Assembly: GCA_900617975.1 (NCBI GenBank)
Contig: UZAE01001286.1
Location: 1-14,122, forward strand
Reading direction: 5' to 3'
Origin: Rodentolepis nana
Lineage: Eukaryota; Platyhelminthes; Cestoda; Cyclophyllidea; Hymenolepididae
Length of the DNA stretch: 14,122 bases
Positions 666-14,105 of this stretch are shown in pieces. A program made the position numbers and the translations under genes. The notes below the pieces were generated by a model. That model did no database searches, was not told the origin of the DNA, and saw only the letters and a list, made by a program, of their open reading frames with translations. The number at the start of each line of letters is the position of its first letter. The first letter of the stretch is position 1.

Positions 666-700
666 TCACACTAAAATCCATGTAGTGATTCCAAAGAGAA
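666..700 (-). CDS. Gene 1, last coding exon (hydrophobic tail)
   Basis: The minus strand has a good acceptor (ttttgtttaatttag at about 715-701), then phase-1 codons reading LFGITTWILV and TGA at 668-666. The exon is paralogous to the last exon of gene 2 at 13089-13123: both contain GGAATCACT, then TGGATTTT, and encode GIT-x-WI at the same distance from the acceptor. That match also fixes the phase. The tail, together with YTFT from the preceding exon, gives about 15 hydrophobic residues at the C-terminus, compatible with a GPI-anchor signal or a short membrane segment. An AATAAA follows at 598-593. Confidence 0.6.
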
Positions 701-787
701 CTAAATTAAACAAAATAGGAGTTCAAAGGGTTTAAAGTAAATAAAACGCCTTAATAGATGAAGGAGAGATTAAAATGTGTAACTTAC

Positions 788-814
788 TTGTGAAGGTGTA
801 TCCGATTGGGCAGA
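788..814 (-). CDS. Gene 1, 27-nt microexon
   Basis: Acceptor ttattatttctaccaaatag (minus strand, ending at 815) and donor gtaagttac from 787 enclose 27 bases. In phase 1 it reads CPIGYTFT; the split codon joins the upstream exon to give Val and the downstream exon to give Ile. Length divisible by three and phase 1 at both ends allow it to be included or skipped without a frameshift. The overlapping plus-strand frame at 819-1091 shows nothing protein-like. Confidence 0.5.
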
Positions 815-1108
815 CTATTTGGTAGAAATAATAAAGCAAAAAACGAATTTATGTTGCAACCAAATCAGATTTAACTTCAATTTTGAGGATTGCATTTCAA
901 CTGCATTTCTAAAGTATAAGTTTAAATATAATGCATGGAAGCCTACAAACAATACGTCACGCCGATCTCTTGCGAAAAGACAAATCGAAAATAAGACATC
1001 TTATCTAAGTCAAATTTTCATTTATTGTCTATGTTATCAAAGCCTCATTCAAAAGGCATTTAAAGGCCACGATTTGAAATGTGTGAAATAATTCAATTGT
1101 CGACTTAC

Positions 1109-1135
1109 CTCTGCTTGTTAATAGGTTGATGCGCT
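1109..1135 (-). CDS. Gene 1, 27-nt microexon (weak acceptor)
   Basis: A strong donor (GAG then gtaagtcga, from 1108) and an AG at 1137-1136 bound 27 bases that read RINLLTSR in phase 1. The acceptor has a purine-rich lead-in (aaaacaaagcatcag), so it is the weakest of the microexons on signal alone. It is kept because the size, phase and donor match its neighbours. The other two phases are unhelpful: phase 0 contains TAA. Confidence 0.38.
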
Positions 1136-1306
1136 CTGATGCTTTGTTTTCTGATGAATATAGGCATTTATATATTTCATGATTCTTTGAATATTTTAAA
1201 ATTAGAAGTATTTAAATAAACTGAGGATTATTTGCCTTCATAAATTAACTATTTTAAACTTTGGCTTCAAACTAAAAATAATGCACAATAAAGATATGGA
1301 GCTTAC

Positions 1307-1336
1307 TTCGACACTCAGCATAATCAGGAGACTCCC
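1307..1336 (-). CDS. Gene 1, 30-nt microexon
   Basis: An excellent pyrimidine-rich acceptor (cagttcctctctttag, ending at 1337) and the donor gtaagctcc from 1306 flank exactly 30 bases. Phase 1 is open and reads ESPDYAECR, contributing one cysteine. Phase 2 has a stop. It joins in phase to the 47-nt exon at 1475-1521 and to the 27-nt exon at 1109-1135. Confidence 0.58.
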
Positions 1337-1474
1337 CTAAAGAGAGGAACTGATTTAAGTTGGTCAAATAAATAAAAAAATAATGTGTGTTTTAAATATA
1401 AAATACCATATTTCAGCCAATAGGCAAAAAATTCCTAGGAATGAACTTTCTGTTGTAAAAAAGAGATTACTAAC

Positions 1475-1521
1475 TTCCTCCGAATTCTGGCGATCGTACA
1501 CAAGTTTGTAATTCAAGCGAT
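1475..1521 (-). CDS. Gene 1, 47-nt exon
   Basis: The acceptor ttaactgttaacgatgctgaag ends at 1522 and the donor gttagtaat starts at 1474. Entered in phase 2, the exon reads SLELQTCVRSPEFGG and leaves in phase 1, exactly compensating the 34-nt exon at 1759-1792 (phase 1 to 2). A longer version from an AG at 1550-1549 (74 nt, phase 1 to 0) would read DDLTVNDAED and LNYKLVYDRQ but would not join the following microexons. I prefer the 47-nt form because it restores phase 1. Confidence 0.42.
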
Positions 1522-1606
1522 CTTCAGCATCGTTAACAGTTAAGTCGTCTTTATATTTAAACATTAAATGTTAGTTTGCACAGTCAGAGCTGTCATAATT
1601 ACTCAC

Positions 1607-1636
1607 GACAATATTTATTATCGTAACTCGAATTGG
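1607..1636 (-). CDS. Candidate 30-nt microexon, possibly alternative
   Basis: The donor gtgagtaat starts at 1606. An AG at 1638-1637 makes a 30-nt exon reading NSSYDNKYC in phase 1. The acceptor lacks a pyrimidine tract (ggaatgaaag), and the exon cannot follow the 34-nt exon, which leaves in phase 2. It could only follow a phase-1 exon such as 2048-2167, as an alternative form. A chance signal is quite possible. Confidence 0.22.
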
Positions 1637-1758
1637 CTTTCATTCCAATTCACGTACATAAAAATCTTTTGCCCACCATTATTGCGCTATTAAAGGAAAG
1701 GTATATAAATCTCGTGTATGGATAAATTAATGGTAAATAAACCAAAAACCTTACTCAC

Positions 1759-1792
1759 GTCATTTGCAAACATGATTTTAATTTATCATATT
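1759..1792 (-). CDS. Gene 1, 34-nt exon
   Basis: A strong acceptor (tatttactgtatttcag, ending at 1793) and a strong donor (gtgagtaagg from 1758) enclose 34 bases. Only phase 1 is open; it reads YDKLKSCLQM and leaves in phase 2. It therefore fits after exon 3 (ends phase 1) and before the 47-nt exon (phase 2 to 1). It adds one cysteine to the predicted protein. Confidence 0.5.
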
Positions 1793-1840
1793 CTGAAATA
1801 CAGTAAATAATAACAAAATCTAGCTGATCATCAAACATAC

Positions 1841-1944
1841 CCATGTAAGGTTGCCTGATCCATTGAAAGAAAAATGAATTTCGACTGAACTACTCCCATT
1901 CGCAAATCTTGATAACGGAAACGACACTCGTGGTAGCACAGCAC
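1841..1944 (-). CDS. Gene 1, optional exon 4 (alternative ends)
   Basis: The acceptor ttatcaaaaatgttag ends at 1945. In phase 1 the frame is open through 104 bases, reading AVLPRVSFPLSRFANG and then VEIHFSFNGSGNLTW, up to the donor gtatgt at 1840. That long form leaves in phase 0, where the next exon meets a stop after four codons (NMIN). A shorter form ending at 1894 (donor gtagtt, weak) is 51 nt, phase 1-1, and joins the 34-nt exon cleanly. Like the last exon of gene 2 it begins GTGCTGT after the acceptor. The exon is probably real or recently real; whether it is a cassette, an alternative end or skipped is unresolved. Confidence 0.4.
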
Positions 1945-2047
1945 CTAACATTTTTGATAAAAATAGTAATAAAATCTAGTCAATGAAAGTCAAAATCAAT
2001 TATGGTAACCTTGTTGGGCCCATTTTTGCCGTTTGGTATATTCTAAC

Positions 2048-2526
2048 CTGGTTCGACGGGACTGAACGAACACTTTGGATCAAATGTAGCAATGCAATTA
2101 TATTCTTTATCAGCAACAACCAGTAAGCTGTATTGTGAAGCCTCATCAATTGTAACATTAACAAATTCTAAATAAGTTTTGTTAATTGGAGGTCTTGATT
2201 TCAAACAGAACCCCATTACTTGAATCCCTATAACAAGATGATCCAATTAATGTGTCCCTGTTCATGCATTTTTCATTTTCAGTCGCGAAGTCAAACATAT
2301 TATGATTTTTCATGAGAAAGGCTCTCTGCAATTGTAGTAAATAAGTTGTAAATGGCAAGAAATCGGCGTTTACCTGAAATTGTTCCATAGAAAATACCAT
2401 TAGGTCTGTTTTGCCATTTGGTGTCTTGACAATTCGTGAACATGTAGGGTCTGACAAAACTTCACACTCTATTTCATTCGTTAAACTTAACCGCAGCAAC
2501 ACCATAATAAAGAGAGAAATAACCAT
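2048..2526 (-). CDS. Gene 1, exons 1-3: secreted cysteine-rich protein with micro-exon 3' half
   Basis: Exon 1 is 2526-2374, exon 2 is 2325-2220, exon 3 is 2167-2048. The introns are 48 nt (gtaaac...ttgcag) and 52 nt (gtaatg...tttag). The protein starts MVISLFIMVLLRLSLT, a clear signal peptide. The mature part then carries two cysteines per exon (IECEV and PTC; EKC and SSC; YNC and PKC). The 48-nt intron is a multiple of three and open, so unspliced reading is possible. The 52-nt intron must be removed to keep the frame. An in-frame ATG at 2568 is nearer the TATA box than transcription could begin, so I start at 2526. With the downstream exons at 1759-1792, 1475-1521, 1307-1336, 1109-1135, 788-814 and 666-700, the total is 579 nt, about 192 residues with 10 cysteines. 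I do not recognise the family. Its function is unknown; it is secreted or surface-anchored by inference. Confidence 0.6.
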
Positions 2527-2567
2527 TTTCTCATACTTGTGGTTTGTACTCTTTATGTTCATCTCCA

Positions 2568-2578
2568 TTTATATAAAT
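2568..2578 (-). promoter_or_regulatory. TATA box of gene 1
   Basis: The minus strand reads atttatataaa just upstream of the signal-peptide exon. Initiation 25-30 bases downstream would fall near 2545, leaving a 5' leader of about 20 bases before the ATG at 2526. Confidence 0.5.
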
Positions 2579-2579
2579 C

Positions 2580-3812
2580 ATTTGTGTATACGATCTCGAT
2601 TAAAACGCTTTCAAAGGTCATTAAAATAAACATCCTAAAATTAGTAAAGTTACGTAAAGAGATGTTTGTATATAGCAGAAGTAAATGCAGTAATGCAAAA
2701 AATTAAAATTGTTTTAATACATTATTTCTTCAATGAAACGCCACATAGTTTCTATACTATTCAAGCCTCACAGTTGTTAATTGTATTGCCGCGTTAATAA
2801 ATCTCATTGAAGAATATTTTTTTAAAAGTCCATCTTAACAATAATATTTCATTTTTTACAATTAAATATACAGAAAAAATTGATTAGATCATTTTTTTCC
2901 TGAGGAGAGCATATATGTAAACACATTCTTATCAAAATCCTGTAGTTCTCGGAGTGCGTAAAGAATTTGCTTACTTTATCTCAAGCGGCATTTCTCGAAC
3001 AAACAGCACATTTACATACTCAATTCATTATTGTTTTCATCTCACATGGAATGAACCTACCTAATGTTCACTTAATATTTGGTAAGTGAACCGCAAAATG
3101 CCAAATTAGGCCTAAAGATAATACTTTATAATTCTTTGCTATTCCAATCAAGTACGTGCAACTTGATGCACGCACTAGATGAATGAAAAGTTGTCGGTTT
3201 TGCGTTTCAAGTAATTGAACGATTAAATGGTTTTATATTTTGGCATTTATTTTTAATTTTTACAAACAAACATTTTTGGTTTCTTTATATGTAACATTTT
3301 GCAATCTTTTCATCACAGATTATTTGGTTTTCCCCTTCAATTATTCAATTTATGTATCGCCTAAACATTCAAAATATTAACGAACAATTGCAAATATTTC
3401 TGTACCGTCTAAGCTGCCAAAACTTTAAAACCAATTTCTGACTTCTTTTTGAAGGGCATTTTCTTGAATCACGCAAATGCAAAAACGATAGAAATCGCTT
3501 AACATGAGCTTGGTTCAACGTTTGGCACAAATTCGTCTAAATTGTATTCTTTGTTAAATTTAAATTAACGCACTTTAGCAAAAAAACTTTAATGTAGTCG
3601 CATAAATAAATTATAGAATCGTTTATTCCACACGGGGGTATTCCAACGAATCGAATTGCTTTACGTAATAGCAAAGATTTTTCGAACATTCAGAAAGAAA
3701 TCGCGCGCCGGCAGGCTACAAGTAATCATATTAATATTGAATTACCAATCCTGTTGAAGAATAATCCACGAATGTAATCAGAGTTTTTAAAAAAACCTTG
3801 TTCAAGCGCCCC
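2580..3812. other. AT-rich intergenic region
   Basis: I see no supportable coding exon. A 9-bp perfect inverted repeat with an 8-base loop lies at 3066-3091 (gttcactta, then taagtgaac). A donor-like gtaagc on the minus strand at 2973-2968 has only a 19-nt or a stop-containing 44-nt exon in front of it and was not accepted. Confidence 0.4.
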
Positions 3813-3813
3813 A

Positions 3814-3828
3814 ACACATAGGGAGATT
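3814..3828. repeat. Left target-site duplication of element A
   Basis: acacatagggagatt resembles acacattggaagact at 5292-5306 (12 of 15 bases). The pair lies exactly outside the two conserved ends of the element, as expected for an old LINE-mediated insertion. Confidence 0.55.
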
Positions 3829-5291
3829 TATTTATTTTTTTCAAATGGCAGGCTTTATGATGGTTATCATAGGCCCCTTAGCCGACTTCGGGCTTCACAG
3901 AGAGGAGGAGGAACATCATTGTGGCAAAAAGTCGAAAGGGGGAAGAGAAGAGTGATCTACATGTTCAAAAGAGACAAACAGACACAAAGGCAGAGAAAAG
4001 GTAAGATGAGTACAGCAAAAGTAGTCGAATATGACCACAAACAGTAAGGTGATGGTAGTTTGAAGTCAGAAGTCAACTGCCAGTTAGTTCTGGTAGTTTG
4101 AAGTGAGAAGTCAACTGCCGATTAAGGATCTTTTTGCCTTATGAGTATACGTTGCCCAGGGTGCACCACATTTTGCCGTATGAGTATGCGTTGCCCAGGG
4201 TGCACCACGTTTTTGCCGTATGAATATACGTTGCCCAGGGTGCACCACGTGGGCAGTTTGAAGTACCAGTCAATAGACTTTTTTCCGCATAAGTATACGT
4301 TGCCCAGGGTGCACCACATGGAGGTTGTAAGTACACGTTGCCCAGGGTGCACCACGTGGAGGTATGCCGTTTGAGTATACGTTGCCCATTGGTTTATAGA
4401 CTTGTTTGCCGTATGAGTATACGTTGCCCGTCAATGGGGTGATGGTAGTTTGAAGTGAGAAGTCAACTGCCACAATGGGGTCATGGTAGTTTGAAGTTAG
4501 AAGTCAACTGCCTTTAATAGACTTTTTTGCCGTATGAGTATACGTTGCCCAGCGGTTTATAGACTTTTTGCCGTATGAGGTCTGTTGCCCAAATATGACA
4601 TACAGTGGGGTCATGGTAGTTTGAAGTCAGAGGTCAACTGCCGGTTTATAGACTTTTTGCCGTGTTAGGGTTAGATCAACTGCCGGTTTATAGACTTTTT
4701 TGCCGTATGCGCATACACAATGACATACAGTGGGGTGATGGTAGTTTGAAGTGAGAAGTTGTGACATATAGTGGGGTGAGGGTAGTTTGAAGTCAGAAGT
4801 CCACTGCCGGTTTATAGACTTTTTGCCGTATGAGTATACTTTGTAACATACAGTGGGGTCATGGTAGTTTGAAGTCAGAAGTCAAGGCATACAGTGGGGT
4901 CATGGTAGTTTGAAGTCAGTGGTCAACTATACAGTGGGGTGATGGTAGTTTGAAGTGAGAAGTCAACTACCAGTCAATAGACTTTTTTCCGCATAAGTAT
5001 ACGTTGCCCAGGGTGCACCACATGGAGGTTGTAAGTACACGTTGCCCAGGGTGCACCACGTGGAGGTAGCCGTATGGGATGTCAACTGCCGATTAATAGA
5101 CTTTTTTGCCGTATGAGAAGTGATAAGTCAACTGCCGGTTAATAGACTTTTTTGCCGTATGAGTGGGTTGCCCAGGGTGCACCGCGTGGAGGTAAGTCTA
5201 TCGCAACAACTGCCAGTTAATAGACTTTTTTGCCGTATGAGCATACCTTGCCCAGGGTGCACCACGTGGAGATAAGTCTATCGCACACCCC
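3829..5291 (-). mobile_element. Element A: non-autonomous LINE derivative, 3' end plus expanded 5'-UTR monomer array
   Basis: Reading the plus strand, the left end (3829-4040) matches 7586-7795: ttatttatt tail, caaatgg, gccggc/gcaggc, ttatcat, ttagc(c/t)gact, cgggcttcacagag, a purine-rich stretch, then gtcgaatatg. On the minus strand this is a pyrimidine-rich 3' UTR ending in an AAATAAATAAA-type tail. It is joined directly to an array of monomers (4040-5291) identical in type to the LINE 5'-UTR unit at 232-311, and it ends at cacaccc. No reverse transcriptase or endonuclease frame lies between. The short frames at 4122-4473 are by-products of the repeats. Diverged target duplications flank it. 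It must depend on the LINE machinery in trans. Confidence 0.75.
4040..5291 (-). repeat. Monomer array of element A
   Basis: Two alternating modules recur irregularly. One is ggtagtttgaagtgagaag then tcaactgccggtt; the other is tagacttttttgccgtatg, agtatacgttgccc and agggtgcaccacgtggagg. Only the last copy is followed by the terminal taagtctatcgcacacccc. Copies are truncated and shuffled, as expected for unequal recombination or slippage. Four units keep a perfect CACGTG E-box (4246, 4353, 5057, 5263). Confidence 0.8.
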
Positions 5292-5306
5292 ACACATTGG
5301 AAGACT
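5292..5306. repeat. Right target-site duplication of element A
   Basis: Partner of 3814-3828, with three differences in 15 bases. Confidence 0.55.
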
Positions 5307-5579
5307 ATTCCAATTTTTTCGTTTCAGAATTCTGATGCAGTAGGTTTGATTAACGAGATCATATAAAGCTATCTTACGAATGCTTCAATCATAATAAGTA
5401 TGGTCAATGACAAATTTTGAGCAACCATTATTTAGAAAATTTGCGATTGATTTTATTCTGAAAATATATAAAAATACTCAAATTAATGATATGGCAATTC
5501 ACTTTTACTTAGATTTACTAAATTAAATATGGAAATTCTCCATATACAGGAAGAAGTGGACTTAAGACGCCCTAATTCA
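5307..5579. other. AT-rich region
   Basis: No coding signal was found. On the minus strand a good acceptor (tatttttatatattttcag) ends at about 5464 and is followed directly by AATAAA. It could serve as the last acceptor or as a poly(A) signal for the exon at 5714-5746, but neither can be shown. Confidence 0.3.
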
Positions 5580-5746
5580 TTAGTATTGTAGATTGATATT
5601 GAGCTCTGTGATTGAACAGTATTTTGGCAGCGTCAAAAATGTAATGCCATCGGTTTGATAAATGATTTGGGGAACTATTGAACCTATTAACTCAAAATTA
5701 ATATCAGCCTTACATCGCGCGTTTCCAACCGCATGGGATAGCCATG
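5580..5746 (-). CDS. Third micro-exon-type gene: 33-nt microexon (5714-5746) or longer terminal exon
   Basis: The minus strand has an excellent acceptor (tttttgcactaacataattacag, ending at 5747) with a branch-point-like ctaac. Entered in phase 1 the frame reads WLSHAVGNAR and reaches a donor gtaagg at 5713-5708, giving a 33-nt, phase 1-1 exon with far higher GC than its surroundings. If that donor is not used, the frame stays open through CKADINFELIGSIVPQ and LTLPKYCSITEL to a TAA at 5582-5580, a plausible terminal exon with two cysteines. Both may occur as alternative forms. The gene would start upstream (to the right) of the window's 5750; no signal-peptide exon for it was found nearby. Element A would lie downstream of it. 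The product is unrecognised. Confidence 0.42.
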
Positions 5747-5891
5747 CTGTAATTATGTTAGTGCAAAAAAATCTACAATTGAAAAGCATAAGGCAAGAAA
5801 CCTTTCTAAAAGAGTATATTTGACGAATATGTATACCAATTCACGAACATTTTCCCTAAAATAAATGTTTGGTTTTATATTTTCATATTAA

Positions 5892-6486
5892 GGGAGTATT
5901 CTGGTCTGGAGATATGAATTCTAGGTCATTTTTGAAGTGGTGTAATAAAAGCAAGCAGTAATTTTATAAATTGAAAATTTTTTTAAACTTTTGTTTACCT
6001 TAAAAGCATACAAAAAAATATGAAGAAATTTAAAATTCCGTTAGTTATTAGCTGATGATGTGGTGCGTCCCCAAAATATGGTGTTTGACCATACCCACAA
6101 TTTTAACTCTCCGAGCAATCTGAAATCAGAAAATTAAATAGATTACCACTCTACAAAAATGTCGCTCTGTCCGGAAATACGGAAAAGTTAAAAAAAAATA
6201 TTCTTTACAAAATGACGACTGTCTAAAGATAAAAACCATTTTTTACCATTTTTGAAAATTTTTCGATTTTTTAAAAATTGTAAAAATGAAAATTTAAAGA
6301 TAGCGCAGTTACGAACATAGACAAATCTCTATAAAAATTCTCTTAAAATTTCAAGTAAATTAGCTCTGCAGAATCTGAGAAATCGTTGGTATCAGATTCA
6401 AAAAACAGTTTTGAGAAAAACGCGTTTAAAGTTTCCAGTAAAATTTTTTGCTGTCTTAGTTATAAACTTATATTTCTAACTTACAT
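5892..6486 (-). mobile_element. 3' non-coding part of the Mutator-like element
   Basis: Downstream of the transposase stop on the minus strand lie about 600 AT-rich, homopolymer-rich bases that end in a distinctive segment (gggagtattctggtctgg at 5892 on the plus strand). I take 5892 as the probable element end. No matching inverted terminal repeat was found near 7170-7260, so the other end is lost or diverged and the boundary is tentative. Confidence 0.4.
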
Positions 6487-7166
6487 TTATACAATCTGCT
6501 TTCCTGCTGCATACAGCGGACCTTCCCCGACTTCAAAAAAACTATTTTTGGCGTCTCTGTTTTCTATCCAAGCAGTTTTAGCCTGCTTTGATGCGCTGGA
6601 TGCTCGTATTTCGGAGCGGTCAATCCGGGCGTTGTCTCGTCTGATAACAAATGCATGCGCTTCTAGACTAATTTTCACTAGCATAATCGTTAACATCTTC
6701 AATATTGGTATAAAGCTTTCATTAAAAATAGACAAAGCAATAAATGCTGCAATTTCAATGATCTGAAATCCGGAATGGATATGCTTTGGAGCGAAAGTTC
6801 ATATCAACGAGTTTGAAGACTCATTGTTATTTTGAGTTTCCGAACCCAAACATCGAATCAATAACTCTTCGGATAATAAACTTCGATGGATTTGTCAACG
6901 AATGGACATGATGGAATGTGGCGTATGCTATTGCAACTGCAATGTAATACAATTTTGAATACGAGTTGGCGTTGAGCCGTTCTTGAAAATGTAATCTCGT
7001 TGTTGCATGAAGCACACGACATAAACGAAGAAATTGCTGAAAAGGCCGTGAAAAACTCCAAAACACAGTAGCCGTAATTATTTTCCATAATTGACTTTTC
7101 ATCATTTGATTTCCTCAATTTTGTTGCTGGTGCACTCGTAAAACTGGTGTTTTCCTGTTCCGTAAA
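6487..7166 (-). pseudogene. Mutator-like (MULE) transposase, internally deleted and frameshifted
   Basis: Three pieces line up in order on the minus strand with the widespread animal Mutator-like transposase domain. (1) From 7166: a CASCN...EITFSR...HCSCN zinc-binding-type segment, then IPSCPFVDKSIE. (2) After a frameshift near 6882: IIRRVIDSMFGFG. (3) After a junction near 6840: TQNNNESSNSLI, a stop (TGA at 6801-6799) where this motif normally has Trp, then TFAPK, HSGFQIIEIAAF, SIFNES, and the basic C-terminal tail ending in EGPLYAAG and TAA. Between pieces 2 and 3 the central catalytic region, a few hundred residues in intact relatives, is gone. Live members move DNA by cut-and-paste; this copy cannot make an enzyme. 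The 126-codon plus-strand frame at 6386-6766 is its antisense shadow. The family assignment rests on motif recall, chiefly TQNxNES and the Cys motifs. Confidence 0.75.
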
Positions 7167-7183
7167 TCAATTGCTGCGAAATA

Positions 7184-7229
7184 TAAATAAATAAATAAAT
7201 ATATATATATATATTTATTTATTTATTTA
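7184..7229. repeat. 46-bp perfect palindrome
   Basis: A 17-base arm of (taaa)n at 7184-7200 and its exact complement at 7213-7229 flank a 12-base (at)6 core. The whole is a perfect inverted repeat with no loop and could extrude as a cruciform. It lies just 5' of the transposase remnant. It probably arose from simple-sequence expansion. Confidence 0.85.
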
Positions 7230-7567
7230 CATATACATATATATAGAGATTTAACGGAACAAATGGGCTTACTAAGAAATATAGTTTCAGGTAGTCAGAG
7301 AACCTATTTTGTCTTTTGTTCGATTACTTGCAGTCCAACCGATTTGGATGCCTGCTCAGCAAAATACTTATATCTCCAAAAGTAATTGGAATTTTGGTAA
7401 CTATTCTCGTAGACATATTCTTAAGTAGTTAAATTATGAAAATATGCAACAAAATAAATCATTCCGATGCAACGTATCTAACTTAAATCATTATTCAATA
7501 ATGTATCAATGACTAAATTTCATGCGACAGTTTCCACGAATGTTCCAAAGAGAAGATTTTGAAAATG
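7230..7567. other. AT-rich spacer
   Basis: Short (AT)n follows the palindrome, then unstructured AT-rich sequence. No coding or splice pattern could be supported. Confidence 0.4.
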
Positions 7568-7585
7568 AGCGTTGGAAATACATAT
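7568..7585. repeat. Left target-site duplication of element B
   Basis: agcgttggaaatacatat corresponds to agcgctggaaatataatat at 8105-8123, with two substitutions and one inserted base. This gives precise ends for element B. Confidence 0.75.
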
Positions 7586-8104
7586 ATTTATTTCAAATGG
7601 CCGGCGTTTTGATAGCTATCATTAGCCATTTAGCTGACTCCGGGCTTCACAGAGGGAAGGTTCATCAAAGTAGCAGAAAGTCGAGGGGCGGGGAACAGAA
7701 GAGCGATTTACAGATGTAAAGGAGGAAGACAGACGCAAAGGTAAAAAAGGGTAAGATAAGTAATGTGTAAGGGGTCGAATATGGCAAGCAGTCGGGCCAT
7801 GGTAGTTTGAAGTGAGATATCAACTGCCGGTTAATAGACTTTTTTGCCGTATAAGTATACGTTGCCCAGGGTTATCACGGAGGTAAGTCTATCGCACACC
7901 CCGTATTTTAGACTTTTTTGTCGCATGAGTATACGTTGCCCAGGGTGTTAGACTTTTTTGCCGTATGAGTATACGTTCCCCAGGGTGCAGTTAAAAGACT
8001 TTTTGCCGTATGAGTATACGTTGCCCAGGGTGCACGGACTTTTTTGCCGTATAAGTATACGTTGCCCAGGGTGCACAATGTGGAGGTAAGTCAATCGCCC
8101 ACCC
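7586..8104 (-). mobile_element. Element B: short non-autonomous LINE derivative
   Basis: It has the same plan as element A in 519 bases. A 3'-UTR-like segment with a TTTATTT (plus-strand) tail occupies 7586-7795. It is followed after the same gtcgaatatgg...ggtagtttgaagtgag junction by about five 5'-UTR monomers, ending at cgcccaccc. No coding sequence is present; the 7522-7719 frame is incidental. Sharing the junction with element A means both come from one deleted master copy rather than two independent deletions. The flanking duplication at 7568-7585 and 8105-8123 supports target-primed insertion on the minus strand. It is better preserved at its flanks than element A and so is probably younger. 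Confidence 0.8.
7795..8104 (-). repeat. Monomer array of element B
   Basis: About five copies of the tagacttttttgccgta - agtatacgttgccc - agggtgca unit are present. Most are cut before the caccacgtggagg module; the last runs to the terminal gtaagtcaatcgcccaccc. No perfect CACGTG remains in this array. Confidence 0.75.
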
Positions 8105-8123
8105 AGCGCTGGAAATATAATAT
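8105..8123. repeat. Right target-site duplication of element B
   Basis: Partner of 7568-7585. Confidence 0.75.
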
Positions 8124-8372
8124 TCACAAATTAGTCAATTGAAGGCTGTAATTACTTGTTGCTAAATGCAAGCTCTGTAAAATATGATAAGATTGTAATT
8201 GAATACATAGTAGAAAACGAACGTTAAGCATGTACATTTAATTAAACGATTAATTTATTTTAGATGAAACGAGCAAATGATATTATATGAAAATTATTAT
8301 GAGGTAGGTTGTAAAGACAAAAGGTTTATGGGAATAAATTTATTGATTGTAAGTTATCCATCAATATTGAAT

Positions 8373-8743
8373 CAGCCTCCATGCTAGCTATTATTTTTTT
8401 GGACATGATGCTGGGCTCTTTCAAAAATAGTTTCAAATGAAGATTTCATGGAATTGCCTTCACAAAATGTTAAACCTAACGAAATTATCTTCAAAACAAA
8501 CACGTAAATTGCCAAAGAATAAACTCATTCAAATTTATTGCTTCATGGAGTTTTTAATCATTGAACCATAAAGCCATTTGAAAACTAATAGCGGTCGTTA
8601 ATAAGGTTTGCGATTTGTGATAATGAAGGAGATGTGTGAGATTGAAGCAAGTATTGAAACACCCTCTCAAGAAAATGGTGACATTTGTGATCGTCATTGC
8701 TTTGTCAATAATAAGTACCGCGGTTGAAAGAGGTAGCTTCAAT
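8373..8743 (+). repeat. Duplicated segment, copy 1 (signal-peptide exon and its upstream region)
   Basis: Three co-linear blocks recur at 10648-10993: CAGnCTCCATGCTAG; ttcaaaacaaa...ttattgcttc...atcattnaaccat (8490-8569 versus 10761-10840); and the signal-peptide exon itself (8671-8743 versus 10921-10993). Spacing between the second and third blocks is similar (185 and 165 bases). The sequence in between has diverged. Confidence 0.7.
8675..8732 (+). CDS. Candidate first exon encoding a signal peptide
   Basis: ATG at 8675 opens MVTFVIVIALSIISTAVER, a typical signal peptide. A GT at 8733 (AGAG then gtagct) would end the exon in phase 1, the phase used by the microexons on the other strand. Without splicing the frame stops at 8782, giving 35 residues. 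The donor is weak, and I could not trace convincing downstream plus-strand exons. The presence of a diverged copy at 10926 supports a real gene start. It may be a secreted-protein gene related in design to genes 1 and 2, or a decaying relic. Confidence 0.4.
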
Positions 8744-8782
8744 TGCTTCTTTTTACGGTTTTCTAATCTATACCCTCTATAA

Positions 8783-9180
8783 GAAAATTAACATTTTATA
8801 CAACAATGCACCAACAAAACAATTGAAAATCATTTGTTTAGCGATATGTTTCGATATTTATCTCATTTTATGTACCTACATTTTATAAAATATATTTGCA
8901 AATATGGGTCTGCTCAAATGAGAATTCAAGGTCATCAAACGTTGCGTCGTAAAAATATCTCAAGAAATTAGAAGAGATGTGCGCAAAAGCATTAAAGAGA
9001 TGAATGAAACATGATCATTAGAGAACGAAACTGTCATTGATTATTACATTTATATGCGTAATTAGTGCTTAATGACAAGATGGCCTACACATAAGCACTA
9101 TTTCCCATATTGTCTATATTTTGACAAGCGTAGCAATATATAGCACCTATCATCAATAACGACACGTTAATTGGCCTAAA
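8783..9180. other. AT-rich region, no supported gene
   Basis: One minus-strand possibility only: after an AG at 9148-9147 the frame reads AIYCYACQNIDN and ends at TAG 9087-9085. It starts GTGCT like two other exons here. The acceptor is mediocre and nothing around it supports a gene. Confidence 0.25.
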
Positions 9181-9512
9181 AAATGAAGTGATAAAATAGT
9201 TTCAGAGGGTGATTTCCACTCTCTAAGGAGATTAGGCTAATTTTTAATTTTTTTTCAAAATTTTGACACAGCATGATAAACGATCGAAGCCATTCCACGT
9301 ATAAGTTGTTTTGCAAATATCTGAAATATCTCTTTTGACATATAGGTGACCGTCTTCGTTAAAATTATACATGTATATATTTCGATTTTTCGATTTGCTC
9401 TAGGTTGCGGCATCGTATTGTTTAATTTGAGCTATACTTTAAGTAATTAATCTCGATGTCAAAATCCTCTAGATGAGGAAAATGGACTTATAAGGCCATA
9501 CCCTTAAGGGGG
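9181..9512. mobile_element. Possible non-autonomous DNA transposon (tentative)
   Basis: The segment has an abrupt composition change and the homopolymer-rich style of the Mutator-like 3' region. It ends in a small inverted repeat (tcctc...gagga near 9470) and a 10-bp palindrome cccttaaggg at 9501-9510. No inverted terminal repeat or flanking duplication could be established. Confidence 0.2.
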
Positions 9513-9630
9513 TTTTAATTGTAAAAATGCTGTTCAGCAAGCAATTTTTCGTAACTCCAACCTTTTAATGTTTATTACTTGTTCATGTCTTAGAAGGCTT
9601 CATCAATGTTTAAATGTTTTACTCACAAAA

Positions 9631-9731
9631 TTATTCGGCCTCACGGTACACGCACCAGTACCTCCTATCGTGCATAGACATTTTTCCTTTACAGTGTGAT
9701 AACTGAATACATCCGTTTATGCAATTTGAAT
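9631..9731 (-). CDS. Candidate cysteine-rich terminal exon
   Basis: On the minus strand, an AG at 9733-9732 opens a phase-1 frame reading NCINGCIQLSHCKGKMSMH and then YWCVYREAE before TAA at 9633-9631. It has four cysteines in 33 residues and higher GC than its surroundings. An AATAAA follows at 9576-9571. The acceptor (cattttatcatgag) is poor. The overlapping frame also gives a cysteine-bearing reading (EKCLCTIGGTGACT) ending at a gtgagtaaaa donor. I cannot choose between them, and it may be fortuitous. Confidence 0.28.
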
Positions 9732-9820
9732 CTCATGATAAAATGTGCTTTTACATTTTCTAATTAGACTCAGAATATGATTTTACTTGTTTATCTTATG
9801 AGTTCGATTTAATCTATTAA

Positions 9821-9888
9821 AAATGTGCTCAAAATTAGTGTTTGTATATTATATATCCCTATTTTAATTTAATGTGTTGAGCACATTT
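9821..9888. repeat. 12-bp perfect inverted repeat
   Basis: aaatgtgctcaa at 9821-9832 is the exact complement of ttgagcacattt at 9877-9888, across a 44-base spacer rich in TA. It could be a stem-loop or the remnant of a tiny inverted-repeat element. No target duplication is evident. Confidence 0.6.
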
Positions 9889-9889
9889 C

Positions 9890-10645
9890 AAGATTCGCTG
9901 TAAAATTTGACGATTCATTGAGTGTTTACAGAAGTGACTAAGTGAATCCAAAATCATTTTCAATTAATAGTAATAAAAAGCCCATGTAATTGTTTCAACA
10001 ATTGCGCAACACAATTTCTTTCTCAAAACTGTAGTTGATAAATAAGAATCGCCGTTCTGTTAATCAGAGTTGTTCAGTATTTATTGCCTAGATGTTAGCT
10101 GTATCAGACTGTTGCAAAATTAAAGTTATTTAGTCTTATTAATAAGTTGCCTTCGTTAAATTATTGACTATCATAGTGTTTGTGTGGTTAAGAAAAATAA
10201 ATTTTAATTTAGCCAATAAAACAAATAAATAACGTACCAAAAATTAATAACCTAATTATAGAGTTTCACAGCTATGCAATAGTCAGTTGAGGAGAAACAG
10301 CAGGTTATTACTTGAAAAGAGGAAGAAGGAATATTAAAACAATTCGAGTGGCAACTTTTTTAGCACACTTTATTTGGACATACCGTGTGAATACCTGGAT
10401 TTGATCAACTTGAAATGTTTAAATTTATAAGTATTGACTATGATGCTTTATATAAAACATAATTCAAATATAATTCAATAAATATTTTTAACCTGAATGA
10501 TTAACATTTCTATTAAAGCAAATACAAATATTACATTTATTACATGGTCCTGCGCTTGTTGGTATAAAGGTGAACATAAAAGAGCACATGATTCACAGTA
10601 AATGTAAATAAACCGATTGGCAGACGGGTTTCCAACCCAAGTTAC
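9890..10645. other. AT-rich intergenic or intronic region
   Basis: No coding exon is supported here. Isolated acceptor-like sites on the plus strand (for example ggcaacttttttag near 10362) have no paired donor of convincing strength. Confidence 0.4.
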
Positions 10646-10672
10646 CTCAGTCTCCATGCTAGTAACCATTTT
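10646..10672 (-). CDS. Doubtful 27-nt microexon
   Basis: A fair acceptor (aaagctcaccttcag) ends at 10673 and the donor gtaact starts at 10645, enclosing 27 bases. Phase 1, used elsewhere, has a TAG. Only phase 0 (KMVTSMETE) or phase 2 is open. The duplicated copy near 8373 has lost the donor. It is listed because of its size, but I think chance is likely. Confidence 0.15.
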
Positions 10673-10993
10673 CTGAAGGTGAGCTTTGAGTCGCATTCAT
10701 TCACTGAAAAAGAGATCTCTTATAATTGCTTGCATAACACATAAATCTTATGAATTGAGGTTCAAAACAAAGTATTAAAACGCCAATAAATTAATTCATT
10801 TACAATTATTGCTTCGTAGAATTTGTGATCATTAAACCATTACCCTAATTTTCATCGCTTTTAGAGATTACGTCACGTAAATAGAAAAAAAATATGGTGC
10901 CAGTAATTAAGCATTCGCATGAAAAATGAAGGTCATTACATTCGTCTATTTAATTTGACAAATAAGCGTCTCAATTGAAGAAAGAGCTTCAAA
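10648..10993 (+). repeat. Duplicated segment, copy 2
   Basis: Partner of 8373-8743, as described there. It lies 2.3 kb downstream in the same orientation. Confidence 0.7.
10926..10993 (+). pseudogene. Broken copy of the signal-peptide exon
   Basis: It starts MKVITFVYLI, then TGA at 10956-10958, then ISVSIEERASN in register with the 8675 copy (TAVERGSFN). The gta of the putative donor is missing here (gaaagagcttc versus gaaagaggtagcttc). It therefore cannot act as the same first exon and looks like a decaying tandem duplicate. Confidence 0.55.
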
Positions 10994-13088
10994 TAGAATG
11001 TTATAGATTGTTCTGCTAATAAGACAGCATCATCAGATAAATCAAGCCAACTATATTTGATGCTTTCTATTTTGAACACGTAACTATACTCTCATCAATC
11101 TGTTTCTCGTTTTTTTATGATTTCAGTATCTTGACAGTAAAGTAAATGACCGTAATATCGACAAATATTTTTAAAAAGTGTAGCTGCTGCATAAGGTGAA
11201 AATTTATTTACAAAATCTGTAGTAAGTGTGTCGGTATTGATTTAATGTATGATCCGTATATATTGTCAATCTGTTCAAGTATCCATGGCATTGAATTTTC
11301 TTTAGAAATTGACGAGAATCAGCAGACATTTTGTAATCCCTCAAGGCAGCCAAATATTCAAAGAGCACTGCGTCTTATTCATTTCGTTCACCTAAACAAA
11401 CGACTCCCAATTTATTTACGATAGCTCTTCAGCACACATTCTACTTTATTTTATTAGCAGTAATTCTCTGAATTTTACCCGGTACAATTTTTCACTAAGA
11501 AGGTGGCAATTACCGTCACTATGATAGGCTTTTACCGCAATCAATTACTTTCCAAGTTTCTTTTACAAATCCTAGACAGAGATTGTCTTTGCGATTGCGC
11601 AAAATGCACAAATAGAGTTGATACATATAATTGACAAAAATCAGGCTATTAGAGCTTAAAATGAATTCCTAAACTTTAATTAAAGACTCGAAATTGGCAG
11701 AATAATTGTTAACAATTTGATTAACAACATTAAAGCAAAAAAGCATATAATGAGCAAACAGTAACTGCGAAGAAGACAATTATAGTTAGTTCGTGTCAAA
11801 GGCATCAATATACTCAATCCTAGAAATAGCAATATAACTAATCATTTGCGCATTGTCTATAATCACAGCATGCAAATCAGATTAAATCATTGATACGCAC
11901 AGATAACGCAGATATGAATTAATTTCTAGAGACACCATCGCAAAATATACTATTTTGGTTATGTTTTTGCAATTCGCAAAATCTTTGCTGTTTTTTCAGA
12001 GTAGATCTTGTATTAAATGTACAATTGTTCCACTGGATATATATATATATATACGACCATTAATACTTTTTGGTACATATCGAAAAATTGCATTTATAGA
12101 GAAATTAATTCTCTTTTATTGCCGGCTATGAATTATATTGTATCCCTAACTGGTTTAAACTGGTTTGCTTGATTAGAAATTTAATTGATTCACTTTTTAG
12201 GCTGTAAATATTTATCATATATACAGGTAAGCGCGACTATCATTTGCCCGCATCCATTGGTCAGCACATAAGAGATAGATGATTAAGCAGTTCAATTTTG
12301 TTTCATTTCCTTCGTTAAAGCTGAAGTTGAATTTTCTTTGAAATTACTTTCTAGTTTGAAAGTCCTAGTTTTAACAAAATATTTAGATAGAATATCAGCA
12401 AAGAATCGGGTGACATAAAAATAATATGTCAGTAATAACACTGCTATTAGTTTGGTTCATTGATTGAAAATGTCATTTGGCGACAGAGATACCTACCTGG
12501 AAATAAGTAAAATTCTATTTGTTTTCAAATCGCTGTTTCTTGCAACTTTAAACACACTTTATTTATTATTATTCTGTATATGTTCATCAATGCACTACAG
12601 CATCTAGACCATATTCGTTTTAACAGAACCGGAGCACACAATCCAATTTTAAAAGATTATGCACGACCACTTGTTAAACTTTAACTTAATATGATCGTTA
12701 GCCGTGAATTGGAACATAATGCCAATGATTTAATGCCAACACATGATAAAATAACTGAAAATGCCTTAACCGAGTGAAGCATGGAACCACAATTATTAAT
12801 TACTAATAAAAGTAAAACTCGAGTTGTAGAAATGGATTTGTCAATGATTTCATCTAGTCAAAGCTTTGAGTAGCGAAATAATACCCGAAAAAAATTGTAA
12901 AATTAATTTAACTGTAAAACATTTATAAATTCGTAAATATGGGATGTACGGCGAATATAATAGTGATTGATGATCAATATATATTTATTTAATTCAATTA
13001 TATTATAAAAGGGGAGTTAAAATTCGATTTGTCAGAGAAGAGTTTATCAGAGATATAATTGTGTACACCATGCGTCGAGTTAATGTCA
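10994..13088. other. Two kilobases without a supported gene
   Basis: AT-rich throughout, with a short (AT)n tract near 12038-12052. Plus-strand splice-like signals exist: a 27-nt phase-1-open segment at 11306-11332 (IDENQQTF, good acceptor, weak donor) and a 26-nt segment at 12201-12226 with a strong acceptor and a gtaagc donor but the wrong length to keep frame. In this composition such pairs arise by chance and none was called as a gene. An AATAAA on the minus strand at 12989-12984 is the likely poly(A) signal of gene 2. Confidence 0.4.
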
Positions 13089-13123
13089 TTATTTGAAAAT
13101 CCAGTGAGTGATTCCAACAGCAC
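13089..13123 (-). CDS. Gene 2, last coding exon
   Basis: The acceptor gaattaaaatttattttag ends at 13124. The phase-1 frame reads AVGITHWIFK and stops at TAA 13091-13089. It is the paralogue of the gene 1 last exon (666-700): identical length of 35 nt, the same GGAATCACT and TGGATTTT words and the same phase. The incoming split codon from the 13462 exon makes Gly. It is less hydrophobic at its end than gene 1 (FK versus LV), so membrane anchoring is doubtful. Confidence 0.6.
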
Positions 13124-13461
13124 CTAAAATAAATTTTAATTCATCAGGAAATGATTAATGGAGAAAATCAAAACAAAAGAAATTGTTTTAGAAAATGCAA
13201 AACTTGCTTGAGACGACGGACCCAACTACGCAACCTATTTTACAGTGTAAACAAATTTTTAAACCAATTCTTTCTAACAGCAAGTTCTGGCAGTTAGTTA
13301 GAAAATTTGATTAAATAAGGAAAAGTAATATTCCTCTAATAGTTCCGTTTCTATCTACTACTTTAAAATGAAAGGGGTCTTATGTCATTTTGAACTCATG
13401 TGATTCAAACACTGGTTTAAATAATGTTTTGTAGATAAATCATTTGTCTCATTACACTTAC

Positions 13462-13491
13462 CAACGCTCGTTATAGTTATCGGTTGATATT
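13462..13491 (-). CDS. Gene 2, 30-nt microexon c
   Basis: Acceptor aaaatattaacttttag (ending at 13492) and the strong donor gtaagtgtaa (from 13461) flank exactly 30 bases reading YQPITITSV in phase 1. It is 19 of 30 identical to microexon a at 14076 and encodes the same YQ-x-x-T-x-T pattern. The incoming split codon is Glu. Confidence 0.65.
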
Positions 13492-13648
13492 CTAAAAGTT
13501 AATATTTTCTTATTTTGGTATTTTAATCATTATCTGCAAATAAAGCATTGTAAATAAGCAAAACAAAGGAATTTGAAATAAAATATTTTATTGCTTCCAA
13601 ATATTTACTTAAAAGTGGTGTAATATTTCTTTTTCAAAAGCGGCTTAC

Positions 13649-13678
13649 CAGTACACGTTGTTGTTACTTGATGTTGCT
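13649..13678 (-). CDS. Gene 2, 30-nt microexon b
   Basis: Acceptor caaaattgtaatttttcag and donor gtaagccgc bound 30 bases reading QHQVTTTCT in phase 1. It is 22 of 30 identical to microexon a, including aacg near the middle and the final ctg. The threonine run suggests an extracellular, possibly O-glycosylated segment; that is inference. Confidence 0.65.
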
Positions 13679-14075
13679 CTGAAAAATTACAATTTTGAAT
13701 CTCATAAACAATCTGCAATGTTGGGCGGCCCTTCATCTATTTATAATTTTATTGCAAATTGCCCTCTTCTTGCCTTATGCTATGATTCTAATGCTCGCTG
13801 TGACTGAGCTCAGTGGCATTGCACATAGGAACTTAAAATTACTGTGTTAAATAAGGAGAATGCTTTATTGATGTGAAATGATTTATTGAACTATTCAACG
13901 CGTTAATAAGAAACGAGAGATTGAGACAATTGACTTAATGTTAAGAGAAAGTCAGAATGATTGATCCAGGCAATGATAATTTTATTTAACACTCGAGCGA
14001 ATTTGAAAATGGTTTAATGCTTGGACACATATTAATGCGCGATGAAACTTACAATTTTCAAAAAATAATACTTAC

Positions 14076-14105
14076 CAGAATTCGTTGTCGTTTCTTGTTG
14101 ATACT
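14076..14105 (-). CDS. Gene 2, 30-nt microexon a (gene continues beyond the window)
   Basis: Acceptor agcaattttttcag and donor gtaagtatt enclose 30 bases reading YQQETTTNS in phase 1. This is the most 5' exon visible; the start of gene 2 lies to the right of the window. Exons a, b, c and the last exon join without a frameshift, with Glu, Glu and Gly at the joins. The introns are about 400, 160 and 340 bases, large compared with the exons. The repeated, frame-neutral design would let splicing add or drop ten-residue blocks. Confidence 0.65.

Follow-up and report, generated by a model that had tools for sequence, protein, structure and literature searches.

Contig C1286 of a cestode-like genome and its two probably degenerate DUF5727 genes with microexon-coded tails

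The contig C1286, analyzed here over its entire length of 14,122 bp (the window), carries short exons of 27 to 30 nt at both ends of its minus strand, and the locus raises the question of what kind of genes they belong to. An earlier note on this DNA, which named the two tails gene 1 and gene 2, had likened them to schistosome micro-exon genes (MEGs) and had supposed an independent or highly diverged family of secreted proteins. Comparison with the genome from which the contig derives leads to a different answer: the window most probably holds two degenerate members of a birth-and-death family defined by DUF5727 (PF18997), a domain of unknown function, whose products would be secreted, possibly surface-held, and equipped with a microexon-coded stalk. 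What appears to be new, as read from sequence, is a known domain family with a microexon-built tail, present in one decayed and one probably decayed copy. The six ordinary exons upstream of the gene 1 tail, the Pfam family and the lesions had been overlooked in the earlier note.

The genome searched comprises 107.1 Mb in 4,701 contigs, and the fetched loci have a G+C content of ~31–32% (258,513 letters including 5,464 N, with overlapping loci counted repeatedly). It gave three matches to Taeniidae_ag (PF05596), which was absent from all 14 control genomes used for the Pfam profiles. This family is not known outside cestodes, and the genome is judged cestode-like from these matches.

Searched alone, gene 1 exon 4 matches DUF5727 with an E value of 0.0032 and 17.4 bits, the curated cut-off being 26.5 bits. 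The PF18997 profile identified 78 exon matches at E ≤ 1 in the genome, the best at 68.1 bits, and none in the 14 control genomes. A paralog on contig C2441 displays DUF5727 exons at 68.1, 55.8 and 48.3 bits, followed downstream, as in gene 1, by a 30-nt exon encoding ESPDY-x-x-CR (the ESPD microexon). A protein search with gene 1 exon 1, with a query that started at its second codon, revealed 127 places on 98 contigs at E ≤ 0.1, including 62 places on 53 contigs at E ≤ 1e-3. This type of exon 1 shares the exon order of DUF5727 members, since it lies within 1.5 kb upstream, on the same strand, of 57 of the 78 DUF5727 matches and on the wrong side of only one. The ESPD microexon occurs at 28 genome places and at none for the reversed pattern used as a control; exon 1 lies within 3 kb upstream of 17 of these copies and downstream of none, while 63 of the 127 exon-1 matches are followed within 3 kb by a DUF5727 or ESPD exon. 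Genes 1 and 2 thus appear, by paralogy, to be members of the DUF5727 family. This bears out the earlier suggestion that they are paralogs of a secreted type, and the supposed independent family gives way to one with 127 exon-1 matches in the same genome. Protein database searches with intron-containing frames (4 and 39 candidates) gave no match at E ≤ 1, a result that says little because flatworms may be poorly represented in the database and the length of complete proteins may lie outside its limits. DUF5727 and PF18997 were named nowhere in the literature searched; DUF5727 genes could already be among the MEGs listed for H. microstoma and E. multilocularis.

Gene 1 comprises, on the minus strand, six ordinary exons followed by microexons of 30, 27 and 27 nt and a last exon of 35 nt, as follows.

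2374..2526, minus: exon 1, putative signal-peptide exon (MVISLFIMVLLRLSL...), 153 nt, ending in phase 0; from the open frame, donor and genome matches
2220..2325, minus: exon 2, 106 nt, phase 0 to 1; splice sites read, collinear with C1030, boundaries inferred
2048..2167, minus: exon 3, 120 nt, phase 1 to 1; counterparts present in C4679 and C3459
1841..1944, minus: exon 4, DUF5727-like, 104 nt, phase 1 to 0; PF18997 match and splice sites
1607..1688, minus: exon 5, damaged, ~82 nt, limits set by eye; tblastn and frame comparison
1407..1548, minus: exon 6, damaged, ~142 nt, limits set by eye; tblastn match divided between two frames
1307..1336, minus: microexon 1, 30 nt, phase 1-1 (ESPDYAECR); 28 genome copies, no control copies
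1109..1135, minus: microexon 2, 27 nt, phase 1-1 (RINLLTSR); comparison with C1030 and C3459
788..814, minus: microexon 3, 27 nt, phase 1-1 (CPIGYTFT); identical in C1030 including splice sites
666..700, minus: last exon, 35 nt with stop (LFGITTWILV); genome pattern search and sequence reading

Both gene 1 and C1030 display two 27-nt tail exons, one of which is found again in C3459. Relative to the C1030 exon, microexon 2 agrees at 25 of 27 bases in gene 1 and at 19 of 27 in C3459; a convincing relative was found in none of six other loci searched, and for microexon 3, besides C1030, in none of seven. A 42-nt exon ending at 1109 was considered and dropped for the 27-nt exon as in C1030 and C3459. 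A stretch of ~240 bp that includes the second 27-nt exon (window ~780–1020, C1030 ~6000–6240) is nearly identical in the two loci, the remainder differing by ~10%, and gene conversion is a possible origin of this stretch.

Only the tail of gene 2, likewise on the minus strand, falls within the window, its upstream part lying beyond the contig end. The features are listed below; the microexons, rich in threonine (Thr), derive from a window scan and comparisons.

14076..14105, minus: Thr-rich microexon a, 30 nt, phase 1-1 (YQQETTTNS)
13649..13678, minus: Thr-rich microexon b, 30 nt, phase 1-1 (QHQVTTTCT)
13462..13491, minus: Thr-rich microexon c, 30 nt, phase 1-1 (YQPITITSV)
13089..13123, minus: last exon, 35 nt with stop (AVGITHWIFK); same sequence in C4679
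13765..14122, no strand assigned: stretch common to the window and C3459, 99.7% over 358 bp

The overlap runs to near an N in C3459, beyond which that contig carries ordinary exons upstream, with an in-frame stop in exon 6; C3459 probably carries the 5' half of gene 2. At C3459:19200-22600, exon 1 and the region upstream of it are present twice with Ns nearby, which is probably an assembly artefact. A further 30-nt candidate, RIGLKICLH, occurs in both gene 2 and C4679 and was dropped for its poor donor.

The internal microexons of genes 1 and 2 are preceded by AG, followed by GTAAG and symmetric in phase 1, as the earlier note had proposed for exons of 27–30 nt. When the window was scanned for exons of 27, 30 or 33 nt between a T-rich acceptor and a GTRAG donor, four candidates were obtained, each open in phase 1 and each within gene 1 or gene 2; the acceptor filter failed to pick up both 27-nt exons. 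No first-order Markov shuffle among 200 reached four phase-1 candidates (mean 0.34, maximum 3), and three of 200 reached four when any open phase was allowed. The 35-nt last exons with the words GIT-x-WI, placed by the earlier note at opposite ends of the window, were located there, and the corresponding pattern, acceptor included, occurs at 24 genome places (one with a stop within the matched part) versus none for the reversed control.

Tails of the family are not uniform: ESPD is followed either by exons of 12–27 nt or by 30-nt Thr-rich exons. The first type is represented by one 12-nt exon in C4601 and by candidate exons of 21 and 27 nt in C2441. Thr-rich exons of 30 nt (YQQETTTNS, QQQVTTTIS, YQQVTTTSS and others) are found on C4679, in gene 2 and on C1645 and C2602, with one each in the parts read of C1208 and C1856; a DNA search of the genome with gene 2 exon a and its flanks returned eight places on seven contigs, the window included. 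C4679 provides a full gene layout with a 30-30-30-30-35 tail. A search for an intronless retro-copy of the ESPD exon gave 18 places, five of them new and four of these five with exon 1 within 3 kb upstream; it yielded nothing suggestive, the flanks being unread.

The family-wide recurrence of these pieces invites another explanation, namely that the recurring last exons and microexons belong to an interspersed repeat that travels with transposons, an outcome that the earlier note had itself raised for the last exons. A minisatellite common to many fetched loci is indeed abundant in the window, and a fragment resembling a long interspersed nuclear element (LINE) is present. However, another family signal lies within 5 kb upstream, on the same strand, of 12 of the 24 last exons and downstream of one, which favors a gene part over an interspersed repeat, and order and strand follow the other family exons (wrong side in 1/24 last exons and 0/28 ESPD exons). 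Moreover, the similarity of 13 Thr-rich exons from six contigs drops within 20 nt of their borders. Averaged over all pairs, identity amounts to 0.70 within the exon and to 0.70 and 0.68 in the 10 nt directly beside it on the two sides, then falls to 0.44–0.46 in the following 10 nt and to 0.27–0.37 beyond 20 nt, a profile suggesting that exon and splice sites were kept while the introns drifted. A transposon-borne origin of the exons examined is therefore highly improbable. Gene 2 exon a with its downstream flank aligns with C4679 exon b at 76% over 131 bp and, since this alignment spans exon and flank, the rows of Thr-rich exons in the DUF5727 genes are best explained by tandem duplication of an exon plus flanking intron.

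The coding state of gene 1 was assessed by comparison with its relatives. Exon 5 contains an in-frame stop (against C1030, C757, C4601 and C2241; tblastn) and its acceptor, read by eye, is apparently displaced in relation to C1030, C4601 and C2241. Exon 6 suffers a frame shift towards its end, at which C1030, C757, C4601, C2241 and C2602 read through, and ~0.8 kb of C1030, including a T-rich tract, is absent directly before microexon 2. Undamaged copies of the exons broken in gene 1 are found elsewhere in the genome. These data strongly suggest that gene 1 is a pseudogene, and it is probably no longer functional. The stop in exon 6 of C3459 implies that gene 2 is probably damaged too, if C3459 and C1286 are neighbors. 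It could be argued that both genes are functional and that the apparent lesions stem from assembly errors, reflect allelic differences or lie in exons left out of the mRNA, given that the assembly is a draft with gaps, exemplified by the N near the end of the C3459 overlap, and that the visible tail of gene 2 is intact. This is unlikely, as the lesions of gene 1 (stop, apparently displaced acceptor, frame shift, lost stretch) are separate and C1030, the nearest relative found for it (~90%), bears a different in-frame stop, in exon 1. Damage extends to other members as well, with a stop in exon 6 of C1645 and in 11 of the 127 exon-1 matches, while less damaged members are found, for example, on C4601 and C2441. 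Lesions across several copies suggest that the DUF5727 family, of which genes 1 and 2 are most readily seen as decayed members, turns over by duplication and loss.

The likeness to schistosome MEGs drawn in the earlier note was retained in one respect, the architecture of symmetric phase-1 microexons, and abandoned in another, as the genes do not conform to published definitions. According to the part of PMC7653826 consulted, H. microstoma MEGs have at least seven exons, a number exceeded here with 11 predicted in C4679 and 10 in gene 1, counted by eye. A run of at least four consecutive microexons is present in C4679 (30-30-30-30) and absent from gene 1 (30-27-27), the row of gene 2 being cut by the contig end. 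Because microexons make up only 4 of the 11 exons in C4679 or 3 of the 10 in gene 1 (again by eye), the genes would not be classed as MEGs by those criteria. In the portion of PMC4671649 that was available, schistosome MEGs are described as having long 5' and 3' flanking exons and a center composed mostly of microexons of <36 bp. The window family differs in having six ordinary exons before the tail and a last exon with a coding part of 35 nt, and is not MEG by that layout either. A formal cluster of MEGs as in schistosomes, in which variable secreted peptides are built mainly from microexons, is thus quite unlikely here: a signal-peptide exon comes first, symmetric microexons of ≤36 nt occur in runs and the content is Thr-rich, but the bulk of the gene consists of the six ordinary exons.

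The nearest parallel in possible mode of working, likened by description, is nevertheless to be found among schistosome MEGs. In the same portion of PMC4671649, which was the sole match to a literature search on tapeworm, glycosylphosphatidylinositol (GPI)-anchored, threonine-rich and microexon proteins, MEG-14, -29, -32.1 and -32.2 are characterized as proteins anchored in the membrane, with O-glycosylation predicted, and MEG-32.1 and -32.2 as possessing a threonine-rich loop with a microexon-coded central part. Ends that are hydrophobic or held in a membrane, together with O-glycosylation predicted for the protein, are thus on record for MEGs, which lends the MEG comparison some further weight. 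A MEG family on Chr6 of H. microstoma, with the motif MRLFILLCFAVTLWACPKQCP in the part of PMC7653826 seen, is likewise a tapeworm multigene family with microexons, and its motif resembles a signal peptide; no local alignment between this motif and gene 1 exon 1 was found. Aphid bicycle genes, which in the excerpt of PMC9168663 have many small exons starting at codon position 2 and ~17 exons on average, share the exon phase of the window family, whose microexons also start at codon position 2, whereas phylum and host differ. That the window genes belong to an aphid-type bicycle effector family is hardly credible, because the genome carries Taeniidae_ag genes and the window genes group with DUF5727 relatives.

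Taken as DUF5727 genes, a complete member would comprise a signal-peptide exon, five ordinary exons for a cysteine-containing DUF5727 ectodomain, symmetric phase-1 tail exons of 12–30 nt and a 35-nt last exon (x-x-GIT-x-WI-x-x) encoding a short hydrophobic end. With all tail exons in phase 1-1, duplication, loss or skipping of a single exon along with its splice sites leaves the frame intact. This would have produced, in one subfamily, a Thr-rich stalk of varying length made of 30-nt units (YQQ-x-TTT-x-S) and, elsewhere, other short tails. It is on balance likely that the worm secretes the product and that the hydrophobic end, as a GPI-type signal or by aggregation, keeps it at the worm's surface or in its mucus, where an O-glycosylated stalk rich in Thr would display the ectodomain to the host; for alternative splicing of the tail the chances are about even.

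Several observations weigh against this interpretation. The gene models are predictions from genome sequence, in which exon homology, splice-site conservation, phase symmetry, family spread and lesions are seen directly. The best DUF5727 match in the window falls under the Pfam cut-off, and family membership therefore rests on the paralogs. Many exons stand without partners: 64 of the 127 exon-1 matches are not followed by a DUF5727 or ESPD exon within 3 kb, 9 of the 28 ESPD exons are preceded by neither exon 1 nor DUF5727 over the same distance, and 12 of the 24 last exons have no family signal in the 5 kb upstream. Counting exon 1 as the only partner, 21 of 78 DUF5727 matches and 11 of 28 ESPD exons are unaccompanied. 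Short contigs and the exon-by-exon search may account for these cases, and with so many unpartnered matches family size is best put at several dozen or more, up to ~127 by exon 1. C4679, on which gene 2 is modeled, itself has no AG preceding exon 3, and the stretches scanned ahead of the last exon in C2399, C757 and C2241 yielded no additional tail microexon that was convincing. The Thr-rich exons show little codon-position bias (identity 0.72, 0.73 and 0.66) and so support splicing more strongly than selection on the peptide. Finally, each last exon supplies a hydrophobic end of only ~10 residues, which is little for a membrane anchor; the mean hydropathy of the last-exon peptides (0.77–2.19 in nine copies) seems compatible with a short C-terminal signal and weak for a membrane span.

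The window itself carries a modest message, one copy being decayed and the other probably so. Should less damaged members be expressed where worm and host meet, they would constitute a large family of secreted proteins able to vary stalk length by simple means. The data also suggest that MEG-like runs can arise as the tail of ordinary genes, through tandem duplication of an exon together with its splice sites, a point relevant to the origin of micro-exon genes in flatworms. A more far-reaching proposal, which must be regarded as doubtful, is that dozens, perhaps more than 100, secreted DUF5727 surface proteins with stalks lengthened or shortened by frame-neutral 30-nt exons provide a genome-coded surface diversity; this would stem from gene number, birth-and-death and microexon modules. 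The tapeworm group is said, in the abstract of PMC4413821, to lack surface antigenic variation.

Two further members proposed in the earlier note fared less well. A 33-nt exon at 5714-5746 was rejected, as all three other copies have a 1-nt gap within the supposed exon, the acceptor is altered in one of them, and the exon is hardly better conserved than its flanks. The 191-bp stretch around it (5640-5830) is kept at 81–85% on C4679, C3459 and C1030, contigs that also carry DUF5727-family exons, and is apparently a non-coding mark of segmental duplication. The signal-peptide exons said to be duplicated at 8675 and 10926 found no support: both lie on the plus strand, and the frame at 10926 contains a stop. 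An internal duplication, real but weak, links 8340-8780 with 10600-11030 (71% over 129 bp), lying upstream of the supposed signal-peptide exons, and 8560-8780 has no other match in the genome.

An Rfam scan of the window gave no match. A minisatellite-like repeat with a unit of ~40 or 80 bp (e.g. TTTTTGCCGTATGAGTATACGTTGCCCAGGGTGCACCACG) occupies 4037-5306, 7781-8105 and 231-311, and it is this repeat that recurs in many fetched loci around DUF5727 genes. The minus strand of positions 1-311 holds what we take to be a fragment of a LINE-like endonuclease frame (LQWNAGG...MEANIS), for which Pfam gave only a weak LysM match. One 80-bp repeat unit lies just upstream of this fragment, as if it were the 5' end of the element.

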